DNA of 43,761 nt from a virus. Below the pieces are notes generated by a model. That model was not told where the DNA came from. It made no database searches and saw only the letters and a list, made by a program, of their open reading frames with translations. The DNA lies in IMG/VR virus record IMGVR_UViG_3300046010_007443, positions 1 through 43,761 of that record. One strand, written 5' to 3'. The translations under genes were made by a program, and so were the position numbers. Positions 22,409-43,761 of this stretch are shown here, piece after piece. How positions within the stretch are numbered: the stretch's first letter is position 1; each line of letters opens with the position of its first letter.

Positions 22409-22423
22409 TAAGAAACCTTGTCT

Positions 22424-22963
22424 ATGCCTCGTCCACGTCGCTCTAAACTAGACCCAGTAAGTCGAATCATGACCCTCGGTGATATAGAAACCGAGAATAT
22501 AAATGATTTAATCTATACTATATACGAGATAAATGAGGAGGATGCTAAAAAACAAACAATAGAACCAATAAAACTAATAATCAACTCATCTGGAGGGGAA
22601 ATATACAGTGGATTAGCTTTAATTGATGTCATTGGTACTTCGTTGACCCCAGTTCATACAATATGTCATGGTGCAGCAATGTCAATGGGTTTAGTAATAT
22701 TCGCTGCTGGTCATCACCGAACAGCGAGCAACAATGCTACATTCATGTATCATGAAGCGATGTACGGCGTTGAAGGTAAAACGGCATATCATAGACAAGA
22801 AATGAAAGAAGCGAATCGCATTGATAAAATATGTGACGATTATTTATTGTCTCGTACTAAATTAACACAAAAGATATTAGATGATGTTAAAAATAGACAA
22901 GCAGAGTGGTATTTCGATGCGAAAACAGCGTTGAAATATGGTGTGGTAAATGAAATTCTATAA
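22424..22963 (+). CDS. clpP: ClpP-like serine protease
   Basis: 179 aa from ATG 22424 (a TTG two codons earlier is less likely). The LIINSSGGEIYSGLALID segment, the nucleophile in CHGAAMSMGLV (S87) and the His in FMYHEAMYG (H110) match the ClpP/crotonase-fold protease. At the usual acidic position, before the YFDAKTALKYGVVNE segment, there is a Glu instead of Asp as I align it. No Clp ATPase is in the window, so it may work with a host unfoldase or as a phage head-maturation protease. Confidence 0.85.
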   Translation: MPRPRRSKLDPVSRIMTLGDIETENINDLIYTIYEINEEDAKKQTIEPIKLIINSSGGEIYSGLALIDVIGTSLTPVHTICHGAAMSMGLVIFAAGHHRTASNNATFMYHEAMYGVEGKTAYHRQEMKEANRIDKICDDYLLSRTKLTQKILDDVKNRQAEWYFDAKTALKYGVVNEIL

Positions 22964-26814: not shown

Positions 26815-27239
26815 GGGGGAGCCAGGTATTGCTCCGTAATGTGAAGGTACCACTACATGCAGACGGTTGGTAGAAGTCGTCTCTAAACAAACTGCAAAAC
26901 AACAAACGACAACGAATTGTCAACTATGACCTTCGATGATGTAATGTCATTCGTAGGCGCCGATTACGCTCTTGCAGCCTGATCCGCAAGGGGCAGCTGA
27001 TAGCCTTGCAACAGAACAGCACTTTAGTTTTCTCTGTAGTCATAAAACAGAGTGGTGGATGGCACGCTGACCATAATTAGCGTCCCCAAAAATTACAGTA
27101 CAGAGCTGGTCGCAAGACTGATGGAGTAAAGAAGAGATAAAAGTCACTACCCACGTCTCTTACAATTCAGTACTAAGCATGTGATACGTTGGTGTTATTG
27201 TTCCTTACGGATACATCGGTTCGAATCCGATCTCCTCCA
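26815..27239 (+). ncRNA. ssrA: Transfer-messenger RNA (tmRNA)
   Basis: About 425 bases. The tRNA-like ends pair as GGGGGAG (26815-26821) with CTCCTCC (27232-27238). The T-arm is perfect (ATCGG-TTCGAAT-CCGAT, 27215-27231), and the P2-like helix CCGTAA/TTACGG lies where expected. A tag frame ends in GCC-GAT-TAC-GCT-CTT-GCA-GCC-TGA (26959-26982). With GGC at 26956 as the resume codon the tag is GADYALAA, a typical proteolysis tag ending and similar to the Gly-starting tags of Bacteroidota. The conserved 5' motif of most tmRNAs (around GGATTCGACG) is altered here. It rescues stalled ribosomes. No smpB is seen in the window. Confidence 0.88.
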
Positions 27240-27252
27240 CAATTTACTTAAG

Positions 27253-27303: not shown

Positions 27304-27819
27304 ATGAGAACCTTATTTACAGCAATATTGATATCATTATATACGGTACTGGCTGCTCAAAAAGCTGTTCCTGAGGGAGAAATAAATTCACTTACATCAC
27401 CTTTTGCCACAGTACATATTGGTACTGTTACTAATAAAGTTAAAATAGGTCCACTTACTGGAAATAAAAACTTAGCATTTGGTGTTAAAAATATAACTGA
27501 AGAAGCTATATTAGATAAAGGATATGATTTAATTGATAACTCAGAACTTAGATTAGATTTAGAAATAATTTATCTTGATATACAACAAACATCAACTGGT
27601 GTAAGTGTGTTTCATAAAACAGAAAACGAAACAATAATTAGAATAAAAGGTATTCTTTATATAAATAATAAAAAATCAAAAGAATACGTTGCGACAGGTA
27701 AGTCCTCCGAAATATCTACATCTACAATGATTATCGATGAAGGTGGTGGTTTTAATCAAGCATCAGCTCGTTCTGCACTTAAAAAAACCATTATTAACCT
27801 AATCGAAAAACTCCTATGA
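27304..27819 (+). CDS. Secreted protein, YajG/CsgG-like in outline
   Basis: 171 aa from ATG 27304; the longer frame starts inside the tmRNA and is rejected. Signal peptide MRTLFTAILISLYTVLAAQ. The body has alternating strands (LRLDLEIIYLDIQQ, ETIIRIKGILYINNK) and a closing helix (SARSALKKTIINLIEKLL). This resembles the overall outline of periplasmic YajG/LptE- and CsgG-type proteins; the link is weak. It overlaps the T9SS cargo gene by 4 bases and opens the export module. Confidence 0.6.
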   Translation: MRTLFTAILISLYTVLAAQKAVPEGEINSLTSPFATVHIGTVTNKVKIGPLTGNKNLAFGVKNITEEAILDKGYDLIDNSELRLDLEIIYLDIQQTSTGVSVFHKTENETIIRIKGILYINNKKSKEYVATGKSSEISTSTMIIDEGGGFNQASARSALKKTIINLIEKLL

Positions 27820-29711
27820 AAAAACTATTATTAGCATTTGCGCTTTTAATTAGTTACGTAACCACATTTGCCCAAACACCTGCAATTGGACATTTCCAGA
27901 CTCTAGCAACAGTTAGAAGAGGTGATACATTAGATGTAGCCTGGTATTACAGACCAGGATCTCCTGACATTCGTACATTTCAGGTGGACTTTCAGTACAA
28001 GAAAACATTATTAACTTATTTATCTACTACAGTTGATGCTACTGTTAACGGAATGACCCCAGCAGTAAGCTATAGAACTTGGGATAACTATAAGTATAAT
28101 AACTATTCAAACGGAACTTATACTTATTTAACTAATAACGATTGGGCTGTAGGTCGTAACTACTTAGTATTATCAAGCGGTAATACTATTAACTCTGGTG
28201 GTTACATTATCCATAACAAATATAAAATCAACGCTGTAGCTCCAAACTACGTTTCAGATACAATTACTGTAAACTGGGCTCGTATGTTTGATGTTAACGG
28301 TAATACAATTGGTGATAACGTAGCTCAACTTACAAACCAAAAATTAGCTATTAAATTATTAGGTAACTTAACCTTATCAGGTAAAGTGTGGTTAGGACCA
28401 CAAATAAACTTACGTCCTGTGGTTATCTGTACTCAAGCTAATAACGGTGCTTTTATAGATTCAATCACAGTAAATGCTGATGGTACTTATACCTTAGATA
28501 ATATCGATGAAAATACTCGTTATAAACTTGAACTTAAATTCCCAGCAGCACTCGCCTCAATTAGAGATAATGCTGTAACAATAGCTGATGCCGTTAAAAC
28601 ATACGACGAATACACTAATACAGATGTTAACCAAACATTCCCAAGAACATACTTAAAAAATGGATTAGCATATTTGATTGCTGATGTTAACAAAACAGGT
28701 ACATTAGATGGTGGTGATGCTTATTCAATCTATGCTTCAGTATCAGGTTTAAAACCAATTGATACAACTAAAGCATTAAATGTATTTAGTAAGAATGCTT
28801 ATGATTCATTAGCCTTGGGACAAGATCAATGGGTTGCATGGCCTGGTAGTATTAATGGTGTAAATCATATCTTTGATAGTGTAGGTACAGTTAACTTAAC
28901 AAACGTTGATATTAAGTACTTCATCTTAGGTGACGTTGATAGAACCCATTCATCCCCAGTATTTGATGCTAATGGAAACTTAGTAACTGCAGCTAGATAT
29001 ATTGGAACACTTGATGTTAATATTCCAAATGTAACTGCACCAACAGGTCAAGCAATGTATGCTAACTTTAATATCAATACAAATGGTATTAAAAATGACG
29101 GTTTGCAGTTCGAAATGAAATACGATCCAACTAAGGTTAAGTTTGAAGAAATAGTATCAAACATTCAAGGACCGTGGTTACAGTATTTAACTCATGATGA
29201 CGCCAATGGTATTATTCGTTTTGGAGGAATGAATAACCAAGTACTAGGATCATTAACAGGTAATGCTACTCCATTTAAATTAAAATTCTCTCCAATCGGC
29301 AATAACGATATTATGACTAACTTGTATGTTAGAAGCTTAATGGATGCTGCTGATAGAAATGGAGATCATTTCAATATCAATTTACAATCTGATTATGTAG
29401 TATTATCTTCAAGACGAACTGTAGTACAAACACCTGAAGGTGAGATCTCAGCTACAATCAGGCCAAACCCGACAAGCGGGTTCTTTGAATTGGTAGTAGT
29501 ATTCCCTAAAGCAAACATGGATGCTTTAGCTATGGTATATGATATTCAAGGTCGTAAAGTTAAAGACATCGGTAAAATATGGAGTGATCAATATGTAACT
29601 ACCGTTATTAAGCAGGTTGATTTGACGTCTGCAGCCAATGGCAATTATTTATTAGTAGTAAATAACTTAGAAGATAATAAACGCTTAGCAAAACAATTTA
29701 TTAAAATTTAA
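27816..29711 (+). CDS. Secreted multidomain protein with a type IX secretion C-terminal signal
   Basis: 631 aa. Signal peptide MKKLLLAFALLISYVTTFAQ. An N-terminal cohesin-like beta domain (res ~20-180), a carboxypeptidase-like repeat (LSGKVWLGPQ to res ~250), a dockerin/EF-hand-like loop (ADVNKTGTLDGGDAY), a second cohesin-like domain (YIGTLDVNI to res ~530), and finally a type A T9SS sorting domain (TIRPNPTSGFFELVV, VYDIQGRKV, NGNYLLVV and KQFIKI at the end). Such cargo crosses the outer membrane through the host type IX system and is attached to the surface or released. Unusual for a phage-like genome. Confidence 0.85.
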   Translation: MKKLLLAFALLISYVTTFAQTPAIGHFQTLATVRRGDTLDVAWYYRPGSPDIRTFQVDFQYKKTLLTYLSTTVDATVNGMTPAVSYRTWDNYKYNNYSNGTYTYLTNNDWAVGRNYLVLSSGNTINSGGYIIHNKYKINAVAPNYVSDTITVNWARMFDVNGNTIGDNVAQLTNQKLAIKLLGNLTLSGKVWLGPQINLRPVVICTQANNGAFIDSITVNADGTYTLDNIDENTRYKLELKFPAALASIRDNAVTIADAVKTYDEYTNTDVNQTFPRTYLKNGLAYLIADVNKTGTLDGGDAYSIYASVSGLKPIDTTKALNVFSKNAYDSLALGQDQWVAWPGSINGVNHIFDSVGTVNLTNVDIKYFILGDVDRTHSSPVFDANGNLVTAARYIGTLDVNIPNVTAPTGQAMYANFNINTNGIKNDGLQFEMKYDPTKVKFEEIVSNIQGPWLQYLTHDDANGIIRFGGMNNQVLGSLTGNATPFKLKFSPIGNNDIMTNLYVRSLMDAADRNGDHFNINLQSDYVVLSSRRTVVQTPEGEISATIRPNPTSGFFELVVVFPKANMDALAMVYDIQGRKVKDIGKIWSDQYVTTVIKQVDLTSAANGNYLLVVNNLEDNKRLAKQFIKI

Positions 29712-29723
29712 AAATCAAATATC

Positions 29724-30056
29724 ATGTCAGAAGAACAATCACAAGACCATAACGACGGAACTTGGTCAGGTCTTAAGAAAACAATCATTGGTACTATAAG
29801 TACAGCTGTATTAGGTGCTGGTACTTGGTTTACGACTACTTTCTTTGGTGGTCATAAAGAAGATAAAGAAGAACCTAAAACAGAACAAGCTGCTCCTGCT
29901 GCCCAACCAACTATTGTAATTAATAATACTCAACAGCAACAACAAGCTGCTGGTGGTGGAACTAAAGTAATTGAACGCGTAGTTGAAAAACCAGCTGCTA
30001 AACCAGCTGAACCCGCTCCAAAGAAAAAAGAATTTTCAGAAGAACCAAAATGGTAA
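29724..30056 (+). CDS. Membrane-anchored Gln/Ala/Pro-rich protein
   Basis: 110 aa. One hydrophobic segment (res ~18-41, KKTIIGTISTAVLGAGTWF) without cleavage site, then a charged linker, a Gln run and Pro/Ala/Lys repeats (EKPAAKPAEPAPKKK). This looks like a membrane anchor with a flexible spacer, comparable in make-up to the stem of TonB-like or spanin-like proteins. No family recognised. Confidence 0.65.
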   Translation: MSEEQSQDHNDGTWSGLKKTIIGTISTAVLGAGTWFTTTFFGGHKEDKEEPKTEQAAPAAQPTIVINNTQQQQQAAGGGTKVIERVVEKPAAKPAEPAPKKKEFSEEPKW

Positions 30057-30077: not shown

Positions 30078-30341
30078 ATGAAATGGATGAAACAGTTGTT
30101 CGATGACAACAACACAATCAATGAAAAATCAGTTGTAGGATTTATCGCTTTCTTAATGATGGTAGTTGCCTTAGGCGTTGACATCTTTACAGGATTTGCT
30201 GGTAAAGAATTTGTTATTAATGAGTTTATCTTTGATGGCTTTATGGTAATTGTATTAGGTTCATTTGGTATTGGATCTATTGACAAGTTTATCAATGCTA
30301 AAAAAGGCAACAAATCAGAAGAAACTCCAACTGAAGAGTAA
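30078..30341 (+). CDS. Two-span membrane protein, possible holin
   Basis: 87 aa. Two membrane spans (VVGFIAFLMMVVALGVDIF and GFMVIVLGSFGIGSI) with a charged start and a Lys/Glu tail, the classic outline of small class II phage holins. It lies 5 kb from the NlpC/P60 lysis candidate, so the assignment is tentative. It is one base from the next start. Confidence 0.55.
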   Translation: MKWMKQLFDDNNTINEKSVVGFIAFLMMVVALGVDIFTGFAGKEFVINEFIFDGFMVIVLGSFGIGSIDKFINAKKGNKSEETPTEE

Positions 30342-30342
30342 A

Positions 30343-31095
30343 ATGGAAAAAAAGTCTAATATGATTAAAGCAATTATTAGTATAATTACGTATTTCATAT
30401 TGATGTTTATACTAGCTACTAAATGCAGTGCTCAAGTAGTAGGTAAAACTACAACTGAAGATTATAAAGCATCATTTGAGAAAAAATCAAATATTGACAG
30501 TTTATTAGACTATAATGGTCCTAAAATCCCAATTCAGATACTTAGCTTAGGCATCAGTGAAGATGTCTATGCTATGTATCCTGAATTAAAGGATAAGCGT
30601 GTTGGATTAGGTGTGACTAATATCGTAGTTGAATTCTTAGAAGAAACTAATCACTTTATCTTCACTGAAGACAAAACTGAAATTAAAAACAGAATGGTAA
30701 AGCAATTTCAGGCATCACAATCTGGAATTACTGAAGATAAATTAGACGGTAGAGGTAAAATTAGATTAGCTCACTACTTTGCTTACATTGAATGCTACGA
30801 TTTCTCAGTTTCAGAAGACGAAACAGTAAACATGAAAGACGGAGTTAAAAACACAGTTGTAACTCGTTTAGGTTTACAAGTTAAATTCGTTAACGCTGAA
30901 ACGGGAGAATATTTCACTGGTTCAGGTTTAGGTGAAGCTAAAACAGTTAGAGAATTAACATTAATGAATGATGATAACTTTAGTGAAGTTAAATTCAACC
31001 AATCAACAATAGGTACATCAACTAAAAAAGCACTTGAAATTGCAGCGGGTAAAATATTACTTCGTATGCATAAGAAAGGTATATTTAAAATGTAA
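30343..31095 (+). CDS. CsgG-like secretion-channel protein
   Basis: About 250 aa from ATG 30343 (ATG 30361 also possible). Signal sequence ending FILATKCSAQ. The body has the CsgG pattern: GLGVTNIVVEFLEETNHFIF, then KIRLAHYFAYIECYDF, a strand TRLGLQVKFVNAETGEYF, and QSTIGTSTKKALEIAAGKIL near the end. CsgG forms an outer-membrane pore that exports curli. The Cys may or may not be lipidated (Lys precedes it). With the Asn/Gly-rich protein downstream it could be a phage-borne export pair. Confidence 0.7.
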   Translation: MEKKSNMIKAIISIITYFILMFILATKCSAQVVGKTTTEDYKASFEKKSNIDSLLDYNGPKIPIQILSLGISEDVYAMYPELKDKRVGLGVTNIVVEFLEETNHFIFTEDKTEIKNRMVKQFQASQSGITEDKLDGRGKIRLAHYFAYIECYDFSVSEDETVNMKDGVKNTVVTRLGLQVKFVNAETGEYFTGSGLGEAKTVRELTLMNDDNFSEVKFNQSTIGTSTKKALEIAAGKILLRMHKKGIFKM

Positions 31096-31219: not shown

Positions 31220-32725
31220 TTGAAAAAATTAAGAATATATTTAAGTATATTACTTATCATCTGTCTCAGTTGGAGAGCTGAAGCACAGACACTTACTTAT
31301 TCATTTGTTGATCCTTGTACCAACCAAATAACTAATTTCTCAGTACCAGCTACAGGTACTGTGGTATATTTTTATGGTCAATCAAGACAATTTACATCAG
31401 CAGATGTTGCTAGTGGAGCGTTTGCTTCTTGGATAAATCAAGTATATTCTGATTATCGCAAAATATCACCTTGTGGACAACAACAAGGACAAGTAACCCA
31501 AAATCAAATCACATCTCAAATTATTAGTAACACAGTACAAAGTGTAGTTGGAAGTATAATGAGCCAAGCTCAATCAGCTGCATCTAGTACTATTACTGGT
31601 GTAGCTACATCAGCATCAACTTCTAATGCTTCATCAGCAGGAGGGAACTTAAATGCCTCTAAAAACAATAAAGATGGAGATAAAAAACCTAATCAAAATG
31701 GAAACAACAATAATAATAATGTTCCTAATGCTTCTAATAATAATAGTAGCAATGGGAGCAATACAAATGCTCCAGGAACTAATCAAAGTGGGAACAACAG
31801 TTCTGGAAGTAATAATGGGACTGGGACAGGGAATGGGAATAATACTAGTACTGGTGGGAGCAATAATAGTGGCTCTAATCAAGGAGGGAGCCCATCAACT
31901 AATAACTCTAATACACAATCCTCTCAAAACAATAAAACTGAAGAGAAAGGAGAAGAAGTAGCGGCTACAACTACAATGAATGTAGATCAACAAAATCAAA
32001 ATAGTTCTAAAGACGATAACAGTGGTGGTGGTGGTGGAGGTAAGGGTGGTAAAAACGGAGGTAAAAATGGAACAACTAATCCCCTAATAGTATCATCTGA
32101 TTTTACTACGGCTCAAAATTTAGACAAATCATTCACCCCTATACTTAATCTTAGTATGTCTCAATCTTCAATGACAGGAATGTCAAGTTGGGGATTAACA
32201 TCAATGATATGGTTTAACTTTAAACAATTTGCCTTATCAGGTAAATACACTAAAATTAACTTTAGTAAGAATGGTAAGTTAAAATGGGTACATAATATTA
32301 ATTTAACTGCTGTTTATTCATATGGTAATTTAATTGGATTTGTTGGATATAGTGGAATATTAAATGCAGGTAAATGGGGTGTGACTGGATTTAACACTAG
32401 TGCTGCTATGACATTAATAACTGGTGAACAGAAAAACACATTCATATCACCATCAATAACTGCATTCTATACTAAACCATTTAAAGCAAATAAACGTTTA
32501 ACTGTATCTCCTGAGTTATATATTATATCAACACCATTAATATATTCTACTGTAGAGAAAGTAACAACAACAGATAGAACATTTAGTGCGTTTATAGGTA
32601 GTGGGTTTGATTATCAAATAACTAAGCGATTTAAATTTAATATGAACTATAAAGCAAATTTGTCTACCAATCCAGATTTCCCTATATTGTCGTTCTTCCT
32701 AATCGGTAGTAAGATTAACCTATGA
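31220..32725 (+). CDS. Exported Asn/Gly/Ser-rich protein with C-terminal beta-barrel-like domain
   Basis: 501 aa from a TTG codon. Signal peptide MKKLRIYLSILLIICLSWRA. An N-terminal domain with two Cys is followed by a low-complexity region (res ~135-290) of Asn, Gly, Ser, Gln and Lys, ending in a Gly run. The last ~200 residues alternate hydrophobic and polar as in outer-membrane barrels (LALSGKYTKINF, GFVGYSGILN, RFKFNMNYKANL). The ATG at 31216 is in another frame and gives only 21 codons. The low-complexity part recalls self-assembling surface fibres; that is inference. Confidence 0.75.
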   Translation: MKKLRIYLSILLIICLSWRAEAQTLTYSFVDPCTNQITNFSVPATGTVVYFYGQSRQFTSADVASGAFASWINQVYSDYRKISPCGQQQGQVTQNQITSQIISNTVQSVVGSIMSQAQSAASSTITGVATSASTSNASSAGGNLNASKNNKDGDKKPNQNGNNNNNNVPNASNNNSSNGSNTNAPGTNQSGNNSSGSNNGTGTGNGNNTSTGGSNNSGSNQGGSPSTNNSNTQSSQNNKTEEKGEEVAATTTMNVDQQNQNSSKDDNSGGGGGGKGGKNGGKNGTTNPLIVSSDFTTAQNLDKSFTPILNLSMSQSSMTGMSSWGLTSMIWFNFKQFALSGKYTKINFSKNGKLKWVHNINLTAVYSYGNLIGFVGYSGILNAGKWGVTGFNTSAAMTLITGEQKNTFISPSITAFYTKPFKANKRLTVSPELYIISTPLIYSTVEKVTTTDRTFSAFIGSGFDYQITKRFKFNMNYKANLSTNPDFPILSFFLIGSKINL

Positions 32726-34152
32726 GACTATTGCTTGCTATATTGCTGTTTCCCTTTATCGTAATGGGACAATCAATAACTGCTCCACCAGGTAGAACTT
32801 ATCAGGTGAATGTTAGTGGACAAGATGCTAGTGGGTTTGTAATCAGTGGATTTGGAACTGAAACACTACTAACATCAATTAGTTTAGTTAATCCACCATC
32901 AGGTACAACATTTAATATAACCACAACAACAGGTCTAACAGCCGCAAGCGGATTTACTTTAACTGGAAATAAAACTCGTTTAGTATTTACAGGAACTATT
33001 ACTAATGTTAATAATGCGTTATCATCTTTAAAAGTTAACACTGGTTCAATACTTGGAAATGTTCAGATATCAGTAGCCACAACTGTAAACCCAGCAGGAT
33101 TTTTCTATAATGGTGTAAATGGACACTTTTATAGACCAATATCTGCTGGTAACACATACACTGGTGCACGAGCAGCAGCCTTGGCAACAACATTCAAAGG
33201 CCAGCAAGGATATTTAGTAACAATCACTTCAGCAGATGAAGATGCGTTTATTTTTAATAATGTACCACAAACTAATATATGGTTTGCATTAACGGATGAA
33301 GTGTCTGAAGGTATGTGGAGAATTAATGCAGGGCCTGAAAAGGGAACTCTAATAAAAACATCAAACGGACAATTTACAGGAAATATAGCTGGACAGTATA
33401 ATAACTGGGCACCTGGTGAACCAAACAATGCCGGTAATGAAGACTACGCAGTAACAAAATGGAATGGTTCTCAATGGAATGATTTACCAAATAATTTTAG
33501 TTGCGCCTATGTAATTGAATATGGAACATGGACTAATCCAGCTGATGCTACATTCACTGATTTCTATACAGCTAACACTATTAACACAGTAGCAATTACA
33601 AATACATTAACAGGTACAGTTTCAATACCAGCTGGATTAACATCAAGACCATTACTAACACTTTATAGAGTGGTAAATGGAGTTGATCAACTTGTAGATT
33701 ATAAAACAGTAGCTACAAACGGTACATATACATTTGTTTTACCAAATCAAAATTCAACATATAAATTAGTACCTTCATTAGATGTACAAGGTATAACATC
33801 AGCCGATTTTAATTTGGCTTGGGGGGAAGCACAAAATATAAGCGCTCCTAATAATTTAGCTCCCGGTTTAGTGATGACTGGAACTAAGCAATGGGCAGCT
33901 GCTGATGTAAATAGAAATGGAATCTTTGATTTAGGTGATGCTGCTTTAATATCATTTCATATTCATGGATGGAAAGCAATAAATAATGTGTTATGGTTTA
34001 CAGCTGCTAACTACGATCTAATAACTAGAACTAATTTTGCTACAATTACTCCTGTGACATCGTTTATACTTAATGTGACTACATCAGATATTACTCAAAA
34101 CATTAAATACTGTATATTAGGAGACGTTAATTTATCTCATTCATCTAATTAA
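32722..34152 (+). CDS. Secreted C-type lectin-domain protein
   Basis: 476 aa. Signal peptide MRLLLAILLFPFIVMGQ; beta-sandwich part (res ~20-120); then a C-type lectin-like domain (res ~135-275) with NIWFALTDEVSEGMW, YNNWAPGEPNNAGNEDYAV and NDLPNNFSCAYVIEY, including the W-x-G-E-P-N calcium/sugar-binding loop. Next come a fibronectin-like stretch and a dockerin/EF-hand-like loop (ADVNRNGIFDLGDAAL). It ends ILGDVNLSHSSN, a motif shared with the T9SS cargo protein, but without a sorting domain. It overlaps the previous gene by 4 bases. Confidence 0.8.
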   Translation: MRLLLAILLFPFIVMGQSITAPPGRTYQVNVSGQDASGFVISGFGTETLLTSISLVNPPSGTTFNITTTTGLTAASGFTLTGNKTRLVFTGTITNVNNALSSLKVNTGSILGNVQISVATTVNPAGFFYNGVNGHFYRPISAGNTYTGARAAALATTFKGQQGYLVTITSADEDAFIFNNVPQTNIWFALTDEVSEGMWRINAGPEKGTLIKTSNGQFTGNIAGQYNNWAPGEPNNAGNEDYAVTKWNGSQWNDLPNNFSCAYVIEYGTWTNPADATFTDFYTANTINTVAITNTLTGTVSIPAGLTSRPLLTLYRVVNGVDQLVDYKTVATNGTYTFVLPNQNSTYKLVPSLDVQGITSADFNLAWGEAQNISAPNNLAPGLVMTGTKQWAAADVNRNGIFDLGDAALISFHIHGWKAINNVLWFTAANYDLITRTNFATITPVTSFILNVTTSDITQNIKYCILGDVNLSHSSN

Positions 34153-38696: not shown

Positions 38697-39482
38697 ATGA
38701 TTATGGAAACCAACAAAGCACTGCTAGACATTGTCTTTAGCCACAGAAACAAACAGTACGGCGCGTACGAGTTAAGATCAAACTACGCTAAACGAATAAA
38801 CAAAGCCCTACTAATCACCCTTGGGTTAGCAGGTGCTTTGGTTTCCGCTTATGCGTTTAAGGATGATAAGGAATTTACTAAACCAATCTATACTACTACT
38901 GAAATAACAATTACTGAGGTTAAGGAAAAGGAAGTAAAACCACCTCCTCCCCCTCCTCCACCTCAAGAGGTAACTACTACTGAAACTCAAGTAGTTAAAT
39001 ACACTGAGCCAATCATTGTAACTGAACCAACTGAGCCTATTCCAGCTCAAGTTGATCTTAGAGGTGCTGAGATAGGAACATTCGATAGGAAAGGTGATAC
39101 CTGTCAGATTGCTCCATTACCTGGAATAGATGGAGGTACTGGTATCATTGATGTACCTACTGAACCTGATATATTTGAGCGAGTTGAAATTGAAGCTGAG
39201 TTTCCAGGTGGGGTAAATAAATGGAGACAATACTTAGAGAGAAACCTAAGAGTAGATGATCAAGTACCTGAAGGTACCTATGCTGTACTCATTCAATTCG
39301 TAGTAGATAAGGATGGTAACATCAGCGATGTAATCGCCTTAACTGATCATGGCTATGGAATGGAAGACGAAGCTAAACGAGTAATTAAACGCGGACCTAA
39401 ATGGAACCCAGCAATCCAAAATGGACGTGAAGTTAAAGCTTATAGAAAACAATTAATTACATTCCAAATAGGAGGTGAGTAG
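38697..39482 (+). CDS. tonB: TonB energy-transducer protein
   Basis: 261 aa. RNKQYGAYELRSNYAKRINK precedes the membrane span (res ~36-53), as in Bacteroidota TonB. A proline run (res ~82-89) and a Pro/Thr/Glu spacer follow, then a TonB C-terminal domain (res ~165-260) with EFPGGVNKWRQYLERNL, GTYAVLIQFVVDKDGNISDV and GPKWNPAIQNG. TonB couples ExbB/ExbD to outer-membrane receptors; no exbB or exbD lies here, so host partners are needed. Start ATG 38697 or 38703. Confidence 0.9.
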   Translation: MIMETNKALLDIVFSHRNKQYGAYELRSNYAKRINKALLITLGLAGALVSAYAFKDDKEFTKPIYTTTEITITEVKEKEVKPPPPPPPPQEVTTTETQVVKYTEPIIVTEPTEPIPAQVDLRGAEIGTFDRKGDTCQIAPLPGIDGGTGIIDVPTEPDIFERVEIEAEFPGGVNKWRQYLERNLRVDDQVPEGTYAVLIQFVVDKDGNISDVIALTDHGYGMEDEAKRVIKRGPKWNPAIQNGREVKAYRKQLITFQIGGE

Positions 39483-43185: not shown

Positions 43186-43377
43186 ATGGCTATCCAAACA
43201 ATGGATGATGCACAAAGCAAAGCAGACAGACGAGCAGATAGATCATTTAAGAAGAAGAAAAAACGAGTTCCATTAGGAGAAGAAAGCTGGGAAGATTTAG
43301 GTAATAGAGGAGCATCCTTAGCTGAGCAGTTTGAGTGGATTAAACTACAAAAAAATAAAAAAGATAGAATCAGATGA
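43186..43377 (+). CDS. Small basic protein, 63 aa
   Basis: Asp/Ala/Arg-rich start, a run of lysines (SFKKKKKRVPLGEESWEDLG), and a basic tail (KLQKNKKDRIR). Likely nucleic-acid-associated. ATGA overlap with the next gene. Confidence 0.55.
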   Translation: MAIQTMDDAQSKADRRADRSFKKKKKRVPLGEESWEDLGNRGASLAEQFEWIKLQKNKKDRIR

Positions 43378-43541
43378 GTGCTCAAACCGAAATGAAAGTA
43401 ATTGATGTGTTGCTTAGTGAGGCAATGGATCACGGATTAGAACTAGAAGTAATCTACAGCGCCTTAAAAGCAATGCGTGAAGATGAAACACTAACCCCAG
43501 CTCAAGCATTTCAGATTGCAATGGACGAGTGGGTAAAGTAA
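43374..43541 (+). CDS. 55-aa acidic helical protein
   Basis: Starts at ATG 43374 in the previous stop and ends at TAA 43541. Three helices with regular hydrophobic spacing (VIDVLLSEAMDHGLELEVIY, TPAQAFQIAMDEW). It probably pairs with the basic 63-aa protein, an arrangement like small toxin-antitoxin or adaptor pairs, but there is no family evidence. Confidence 0.6.
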   Translation: MSAQTEMKVIDVLLSEAMDHGLELEVIYSALKAMREDETLTPAQAFQIAMDEWVK

Positions 43542-43548
43542 GGGGGAA

Positions 43549-43572
43549 GGCAAGACCTTATTTGTATATTTA
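43549..43572 (+). promoter_or_regulatory. Promoter before the right-edge gene
   Basis: GGCAAGAC, exactly 8 bases, TATATTTA, then 15 bases to ATG 43588. Third perfect copy of the two-part signal. Confidence 0.75.
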
Positions 43573-43587
43573 TGCAAATTAAAGGTT

Positions 43588-43761
43588 ATGGTATTAATAG
43601 CAGAGAATAAAGCAGTAGTTCATAGTTTATACCCTCCAGTAGTATTTGATTCGATTCACGAACCGGGTAAGCGATACCTAATTGCTGATGGAAAATGGCA
43701 TGACATTCACGATGGTATTACTTACTCAAACGTCGTTTGGTTTAGGAGACCAAGCGTAAAT
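43588..43761 (+). CDS. Start of an unknown protein (3' partial)
   Basis: 58 codons open to the right edge from ATG 43588, preceded by a perfect promoter copy. Begins MVLIAENKAVVHSLYPPVVF with later GKRYLIADGKWHDIHD, a strand-rich start. No family recognised. Confidence 0.6.
   Translation, partial: MVLIAENKAVVHSLYPPVVFDSIHEPGKRYLIADGKWHDIHDGITYSNVVWFRRPSVN

Follow-up and report, generated by a model that had tools for sequence, protein, structure and literature searches.

Lytic phages would not be expected to invest in the surface of a cell that is soon to burst. A 43.8-kb virus record, here called the window and analysed over its whole length, raises the question of whether some of them do, since one of its genes ends in what looks like a sorting domain of the type IX secretion system (T9SS) of Bacteroidota. 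Is this domain genuine, does the gene belong to a phage, and what would a phage gain from it? The gene product, referred to below as the cargo, is here compared with its viral homologues, and the genes around it are considered with it.

The Sorting Domain

The preliminary description had assigned a type A T9SS sorting signal to the C-terminus of the cargo, and HMM searches bear this out. Taken alone, the C-terminal 88 residues pass the curated cut-offs of both models, TIGR04183 (27.5 bits, E = 2.2e-6; cut-off 23) and PF18962 (27.6 bits, E = 3.6e-6; cut-off 27). A six-frame TIGR04183 search of the record gave a single match, at 29460-29705, with 26.3 bits. When the full-length cargo was scanned, TIGR04183 was not listed and PF18962 scored 21.2 bits, below its cut-off, a mismatch with the isolated-domain scores that is due to query length.

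The domain is well kept among relatives. PF18962 matches all 28 aligned homologues and TIGR04183 matches 23 of them. In the family of 46 distinct sorting-domain (CTD) members, the P(N/V)P motif, the GxY motif and a lysine within the last 10 residues are each present in every member, and the entire motif order is found in 44. With a dN/dS of about 0.11, the domain is under purifying selection. A profile built from 17 phage copies matches solved T9SS sorting domains, among them 8glk_D (E = 1.1e-5, positions 5-86 of 87) and 8glj_D, both from the Flavobacterium johnsoniae study in which CTDs were trapped in the SprA translocon (PMC10994853). T9SS CTDs are seven-stranded sandwiches whose near-terminal lysine contacts PorV (PMC10994853), and the AF2 model of the cargo has seven strands in this domain. 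The gene thus probably encodes a genuine phage T9SS cargo, for which export by the host is predicted from sequence.

Layout of the Cargo

The order of domains in the cargo is a putative signal peptide, a cohesin-like domain, an SdrD/transthyretin-like domain, a dockerin-like region, a cohesin and the type A CTD (Table 1). The putative Sec signal peptide, MKKLLLAFALLISYVTTFAQ, was recognised by eye and is kept in 28 homologues. Two lineages of homologues are referred to below: lineage I, which carries the fused CTD, and lineage II, whose scaffold body stops before the sorting domain.

The preliminary description had also spoken of cohesin/dockerin-like domains, and its cohesin half stands. The PF00963 score of the window's cohesin 2 lies below the cut-off of 24.1 bits, and relatives exceed that value (36.6 bits in gene 15 of the cultured phage immuto, up to 43.2 bits in lineage II), so that the cohesin in the window cargo is best called real but weak. 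For the first, cohesin-like domain, the basis is that PF00963 matches homologues of lineage II in two stretches and that the cohesin dyad 3l8q is a PDB match. Cohesin structures are among the matches of the cargo AF2 model (e.g., 3ul4_A, TMt 0.75); Foldseek on the whole model gave low TM scores because the packing of the domains is unsure, and matches of the cohesin domains alone were used. A PDB sequence search with the full cargo profile returned nothing firm. The dockerin half is weaker. One F-hand loop, DVNKTGTLDGGD, at residues 290-301, is conserved (its regular expression matched in 34 of 35 homologues) and the second repeat is degenerate. Since the best PF00404 (Dockerin_1) score, 20.7 bits in locus L151, is under the cut-off of 22.9, the region is named dockerin-like.

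Table 1. Positions of the features discussed, in coordinates of the window.
Feature	Coordinates	Strand	Basis
Glycosyltransferase, sugar-nucleotide and aminotransferase genes (~20 kb)	1314-22402		
ClpP-like protease gene	22418-22963		PF00574 92.6 bits
Phage tmRNA gene	26815-27242		
small1, ~171 aa, exported, periplasmic-type	27304-27819	+	ORF; signal peptide by eye; immuto gene 19 homologue
T9SS cargo, 631 aa	27816-29711	+	ORF, domain scans, AF2 model
N-terminal beta-sandwich, cohesin-like 1 (residues 21-183)	27876-28364	+	AF2 strands
Dockerin-like region (residues 246-390)	28551-28985	+	F-hand loop
Cohesin 2 (residues 391-533)	28986-29414	+	PF00963 18.4 bits; structure matches
T9SS type A C-terminal sorting domain (residues 545-631)	29448-29708	+	TIGR04183, PF18962, PDB CTDs
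p110, one hydrophobic segment and Pro/Ala-rich tail	29724-30056	+	immuto gene 16, 57% over 54 aa
p87, 2-TM protein within the cluster, not core	30078-30341	+	immuto 43342-43677, 44%
CsgG-like exported protein	30343-31095	+	immuto gene 17, 53%; AF2 and Foldseek
Probable outer-membrane protein, low-complexity linker, barrel-like C-terminus	31220-32725	+	signal peptide by eye; immuto gene 18, 28%; syntenic
Exported C-type lectin, dockerin-like C-terminus	32722-34152	+	PF00059 27.9 bits (cut-off 22.6)
TonB C-terminal domain protein	38697-39482		PF03544 36.6 bits

Viral Origin and Phage Immuto

The window contains no hallmark structural gene, and its assignment to a phage comes from its status as a virus record and from its relatives. 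Homologues of the cargo occur at 57 other IMG/VR loci (54-96% identity), contigs of 137-321 kb among them. A 169-kb relative, G003, has a small1 97% identical and a cargo 82% identical to those of the window, and its terminase, portal gp20, capsid gp23, sheath and replication genes run collinear with those of the cultured Flavobacterium phage immuto; the structural genes of the two (terminase, portal, gp23 and sheath) are 49-59% identical. The collinear terminase, portal, gp23 and sheath genes identify G003, by sequence comparison, as an Immutovirus-like T4-type phage. Because the segment from 41 to 43.7 kb of the window maps to the start of G003, the G003 genome is circular or permuted. Terminase is present on five of nine large cargo-bearing contigs, and four contigs of 288-321 kb (L036, L115, L133 and L141) carry a gp23 capsid gene of the T4 type. 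A scan of 84,980 species genomes of bacteria and archaea with two short conserved patterns, a probe that very distant cellular relatives could escape, found nothing related to the cargo. The window contig is a phage fragment, as the preliminary description had held when it took the region to be viral and not chromosomal.

Phage immuto (vB_FspM_immuto, MW353176), cultured on Flavobacterium sp. LMO8, has the cargo and the genes around it in permuted order, placed among DNA-replication and nucleotide genes, far from the virion genes. Immuto genes 14 and 15 correspond to the two halves of the window cargo: gene 14 has the dockerin-like end, and gene 15 has the cohesin together with a T9SS CTD of 45.4 bits, stronger than that of the window copy. 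Gene 13 is a C-type lectin (Lectin_C, 58 bits). That the scaffold is split in immuto and fused in the window lineage suggests that its parts interact.

Other genes of the window deserve mention. Just upstream of the cargo cluster is the tmRNA gene, whose predicted tag, DNELSTMTFDDVMSFVGADYALAA, is unusually long; L003, L006, L009, L012 and L014 have near-identical tags. The TonB-domain protein is absent from the near relative G003, and no cellular relatives of it were found in a scan of genome contigs. The first of the sugar genes are conserved in immuto and the remainder are variable; their products may alter glycans on the host surface or glycosylate the virions. A ClpP-like protease gene follows them.

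A Six-Gene Envelope Module

Together with five neighbouring genes, the cargo gene makes up a conserved envelope module, in the order small1, cargo, p110, CsgG-like, outer-membrane protein and lectin. The CsgG-like protein is encoded at 503 or more viral loci; among the best 80 of these at least 503 loci, the scaffold body and the outer-membrane protein are each found in 76, p110 and small1 each in 72, and the lectin in 38. The module also occurs on the jumbo phage contigs L036, L115, L133 and L141, and so spans very different genome sizes. At L127, L134, L081 and L082, a CsgG-like gene is present and no scaffold body was recognised nearby; these may be further variant modules.

The small protein small1, syntenic in nearly all complete loci, has a weak Lipoprotein_16/YajG-like match (PF03923, 15.2 bits, below cut-off), and p110 is likely anchored in the inner membrane. 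For the CsgG-like protein, the top Foldseek matches of the AF2 model (pLDDT 70.9) are CsgG, with E = 1e-5, prob 1.00 and TM 0.38-0.48. No CsgG Pfam match was obtained in 27 members at E<=1, and a PDB sequence search with the family profile gave nothing firm. The lipidated N-terminal cysteine of CsgG is absent, as most of the signal peptides end in AQ with no lipobox cysteine. We thus regard this protein as related to CsgG by predicted fold only, from a moderately confident model. The lectin copies keep the WND motif in 33 of 33 and the EPN motif in 22 of 33, both Ca/sugar motifs, and the F-hand in 30 of 33; the score of the dockerin-like end for PF00404 (14.9 bits) is below the cut-off of 22.9. 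The retention of WND and EPN makes calcium-dependent sugar binding likely. A dockerin-like end is common to the lectin and immuto gene 14, so that docking onto a cohesin would be the simplest reading. The p87 gene was considered as a module part and rejected; its immuto homologue lies beside chitinase and holin genes, in the lysis region.

Exchange of Anchors

The scaffold body of lineage II is homologous to that of lineage I over its whole length (hhalign E = 8e-65) and stops short of the sorting domain. Directly after it comes a gene for a lipoprotein of about 120 residues with a sorting-domain-like fold. A lipobox is found in 34 of 35 of these lipoproteins, and all 35 have the cysteine with an acidic residue at positions +2 to +5. 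Surface lipoproteins of Bacteroidota carry an acidic lipoprotein export signal (LES) after the cysteine, with the F. johnsoniae consensus SDDFE (PMC5080379); those of lineage II usually have fewer acidic residues there than the published LES consensus. Comparison with the CTD (hhalign E = 2.9e-6) and PF18962 matches in 9 of 19 lipoproteins indicate that the lipoprotein domain and the T9SS CTD are homologous. None of the 35 lipoproteins keeps the PNP motif. These phages may offer natural cases in which a T9SS sorting domain became a lipoprotein, or the reverse. The lipoprotein profile also matched 9flp, a grappling hook protein, and this candidate was set aside, as no single stretch passed alone. 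A PDB sequence search with lineage II bodies gave nothing firm.

The two anchors exclude each other. At about 130 loci, the body and its downstream neighbour are both visible, and each locus has either a fused CTD or an adjacent lipoprotein; none has both. These counts take some contigs twice, and the distinct proteins are 46 with a CTD and 35 lipoproteins. Each of nine lineage I contigs has exactly one TIGR04183 match. TIGR04183 gave no match above cut-off on ten contigs of 66-132 kb with CTD-less loci (nine of the lipoprotein type and L081, in which no body was recognised). A single switch of anchor is not supported, as the CsgG tree requires three or more changes of anchor type. Modules or genes have therefore probably moved between lineages, and such exchange could account for the repeated swaps.

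We read this as a set of swappable surface anchors, predicted from their sequences, for a phage-encoded lectin complex. That both of the swapped parts are surface anchors speaks for surface placement as the trait that is retained. Since the lineage II body lacks a CTD, the T9SS cannot be the sole way out for homologous bodies. Export of the lineage II body is the weakest step in this account: it would fall either to the CsgG-like/outer-membrane platform or to the lipoprotein, as a carrier. The platform may contribute to export in lineage I as well.

Proposed Mechanism and Alternatives

On balance, we think it probable that the cargo is the T9SS-anchored scaffold of a phage envelope module that displays a lectin complex on the infected cell. 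The export, docking, topology and benefit that we infer would be as follows. During infection, Sec would export the module proteins. A T9SS is assumed for the host of the window phage; this system would recognise the type A sorting domain and move the cohesin/dockerin-like scaffold across the outer membrane, after which the scaffold would stay on the cell surface. The lectin would dock by its dockerin-like end onto a scaffold cohesin, and the infected cell would then present a complex that binds sugars in a calcium-dependent way. An outer-membrane platform for export or anchoring would be made up of the CsgG-like and barrel-like proteins together with the two small proteins, comparable to CsgG for curli. 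In the sister lineage, a separate surface-type lipoprotein would take the place of the T9SS anchor. The likeliest benefit, by conjecture, would be altered binding to the infected cell, leading to exclusion of competing phages or to aggregation with new hosts. Display of the cargo on the host surface, as the preliminary description had envisaged, is supported as a prediction, and further supported because the sister phages swap the anchor to a lipoprotein. It is tempting, with less than even confidence, to propose that a widespread group of Bacteroidota phages builds, on the surface of infected cells, a mini cellulosome-like adhesion complex in which a cohesin scaffold, anchored by the T9SS or by a lipoprotein, recruits a dockerin-tailed lectin. 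A similarly tentative extension is that recruitment proceeds through the CsgG-like outer-membrane platform and serves to aggregate hosts or exclude rivals.

The alternative that survives best, although we judge it unlikely, is that the module's own CsgG-like/outer-membrane platform accomplishes both export and display, the CTD-like domain being just an Ig-like structural or anchoring part that has ceased to use the T9SS. Lineage II retains the platform genes and the scaffold body without a T9SS signal, the CsgG-like fold would fit such export, and the lipoprotein domain indicates that a CTD fold can serve without T9SS targeting. However, lineage I keeps the fold-defining and lysine motifs of functional type A CTDs in 46 of 46 members under purifying selection, and the immuto CTD scores 45.4 bits. 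The PNP motif is lost in lineage II, as expected once targeting has been dropped.

Two further explanations seem improbable to us, and to the same degree. C-type lectin folds are known on phage tails, e.g., in Mtd, and Ig-like domains are common on virions, so the cargo and lectin might be virion components, such as tail-associated adhesins, in which the likeness to a CTD is incidental or an aid to assembly. Against this, the proteins have N-terminal signal peptides (by eye) and a full T9SS CTD or a lipoprotein anchor, and in both immuto and G003 the module lies tens of kb from the genes for capsid and tail. The other explanation is that the module forms a complex of the periplasm or envelope, serving lysis or the uptake of nutrients and not surface display. 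It would suit p110, which looks like an inner-membrane protein, the periplasmic small1 and the lysis-type p87 gene within the window cluster, but p87 is located elsewhere in immuto, and the EPN/WND lectin, the T9SS CTD and the LES-like lipoprotein all point outward. Finally, misbinned host sequence, suggested by a domain set typical of Bacteroidota surface proteins, has a negligible chance of being correct, given the terminase and gp23 genes on the same contigs, the cellular scan and, decisively, the complete genome of cultured immuto with the module.

For the display of a T9SS-anchored lectin scaffold, immuto and its culturable host, Flavobacterium sp. LMO8, make the module directly testable. 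That hundreds of contigs from Bacteroidota phages conserve a putative surface module, and that its two anchors can be exchanged, speaks for strong selection acting at the infected cell's surface.

Comparison with Known Systems

A phage-encoded T9SS cargo has precedent (PMC7468147, PMC6949934). Cryophage, described in 2020, encodes T9SS-CTD cargo, termed a unique occurrence (Bellas et al. 2020, PMC7468147). As in the window phage, type A sorting domains are found on phage proteins and hijacking of the host T9SS was proposed, but the Cryophage cargo consists of three variable single genes (endoglucanase, GH39 and PA14). In the window, in contrast, a single scaffold cargo is combined with a lectin and a CsgG-like protein in a conserved module of syntenic genes; cultured phages have it too, and there is an alternative lipoprotein anchor. 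The BACON proteins of crAss-like phages (PMC6949934) are likewise Bacteroidota phage ORFs that carry or adjoin T9SS sorting domains. They differ in being BACON-based and near head genes, with no cohesin/lectin/CsgG-like module described. In the open-access literature, we found no report that joins T9SS cargo, cohesin/dockerin-like parts, lectin and CsgG-like protein in phages, nor one of the anchor swap.

The curli operon (CsgF/CsgG) of pelagimyophages resembles the window module in that T4-like phages encode a CsgG-type protein with small partners; its purpose is unclear, and aggregation ("sibling capture") has been proposed (PMC7029224). There, CsgG is recognisable by sequence, T9SS cargo, cohesin and lectin are lacking, and the host is alphaproteobacterial. 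Immuto (MW353176) has the same module as the window and a genome collinear with the 169-kb relative, whereas its scaffold is in two genes and its module has moved beside the replication genes; the module is annotated in MW353176 only as lectin, "cohesin domain" and hypothetical proteins. The lineage II anchors, which are candidate LES lipoproteins, resemble the surface lipoproteins of Bacteroidota (PMC5080379) in having a lipobox followed by polar or acidic residues (e.g., SDLEK, against SDDFE in F. johnsoniae). Unlike those lipoproteins, they are small phage proteins with a T9SS-CTD-like fold and a predicted surface location.
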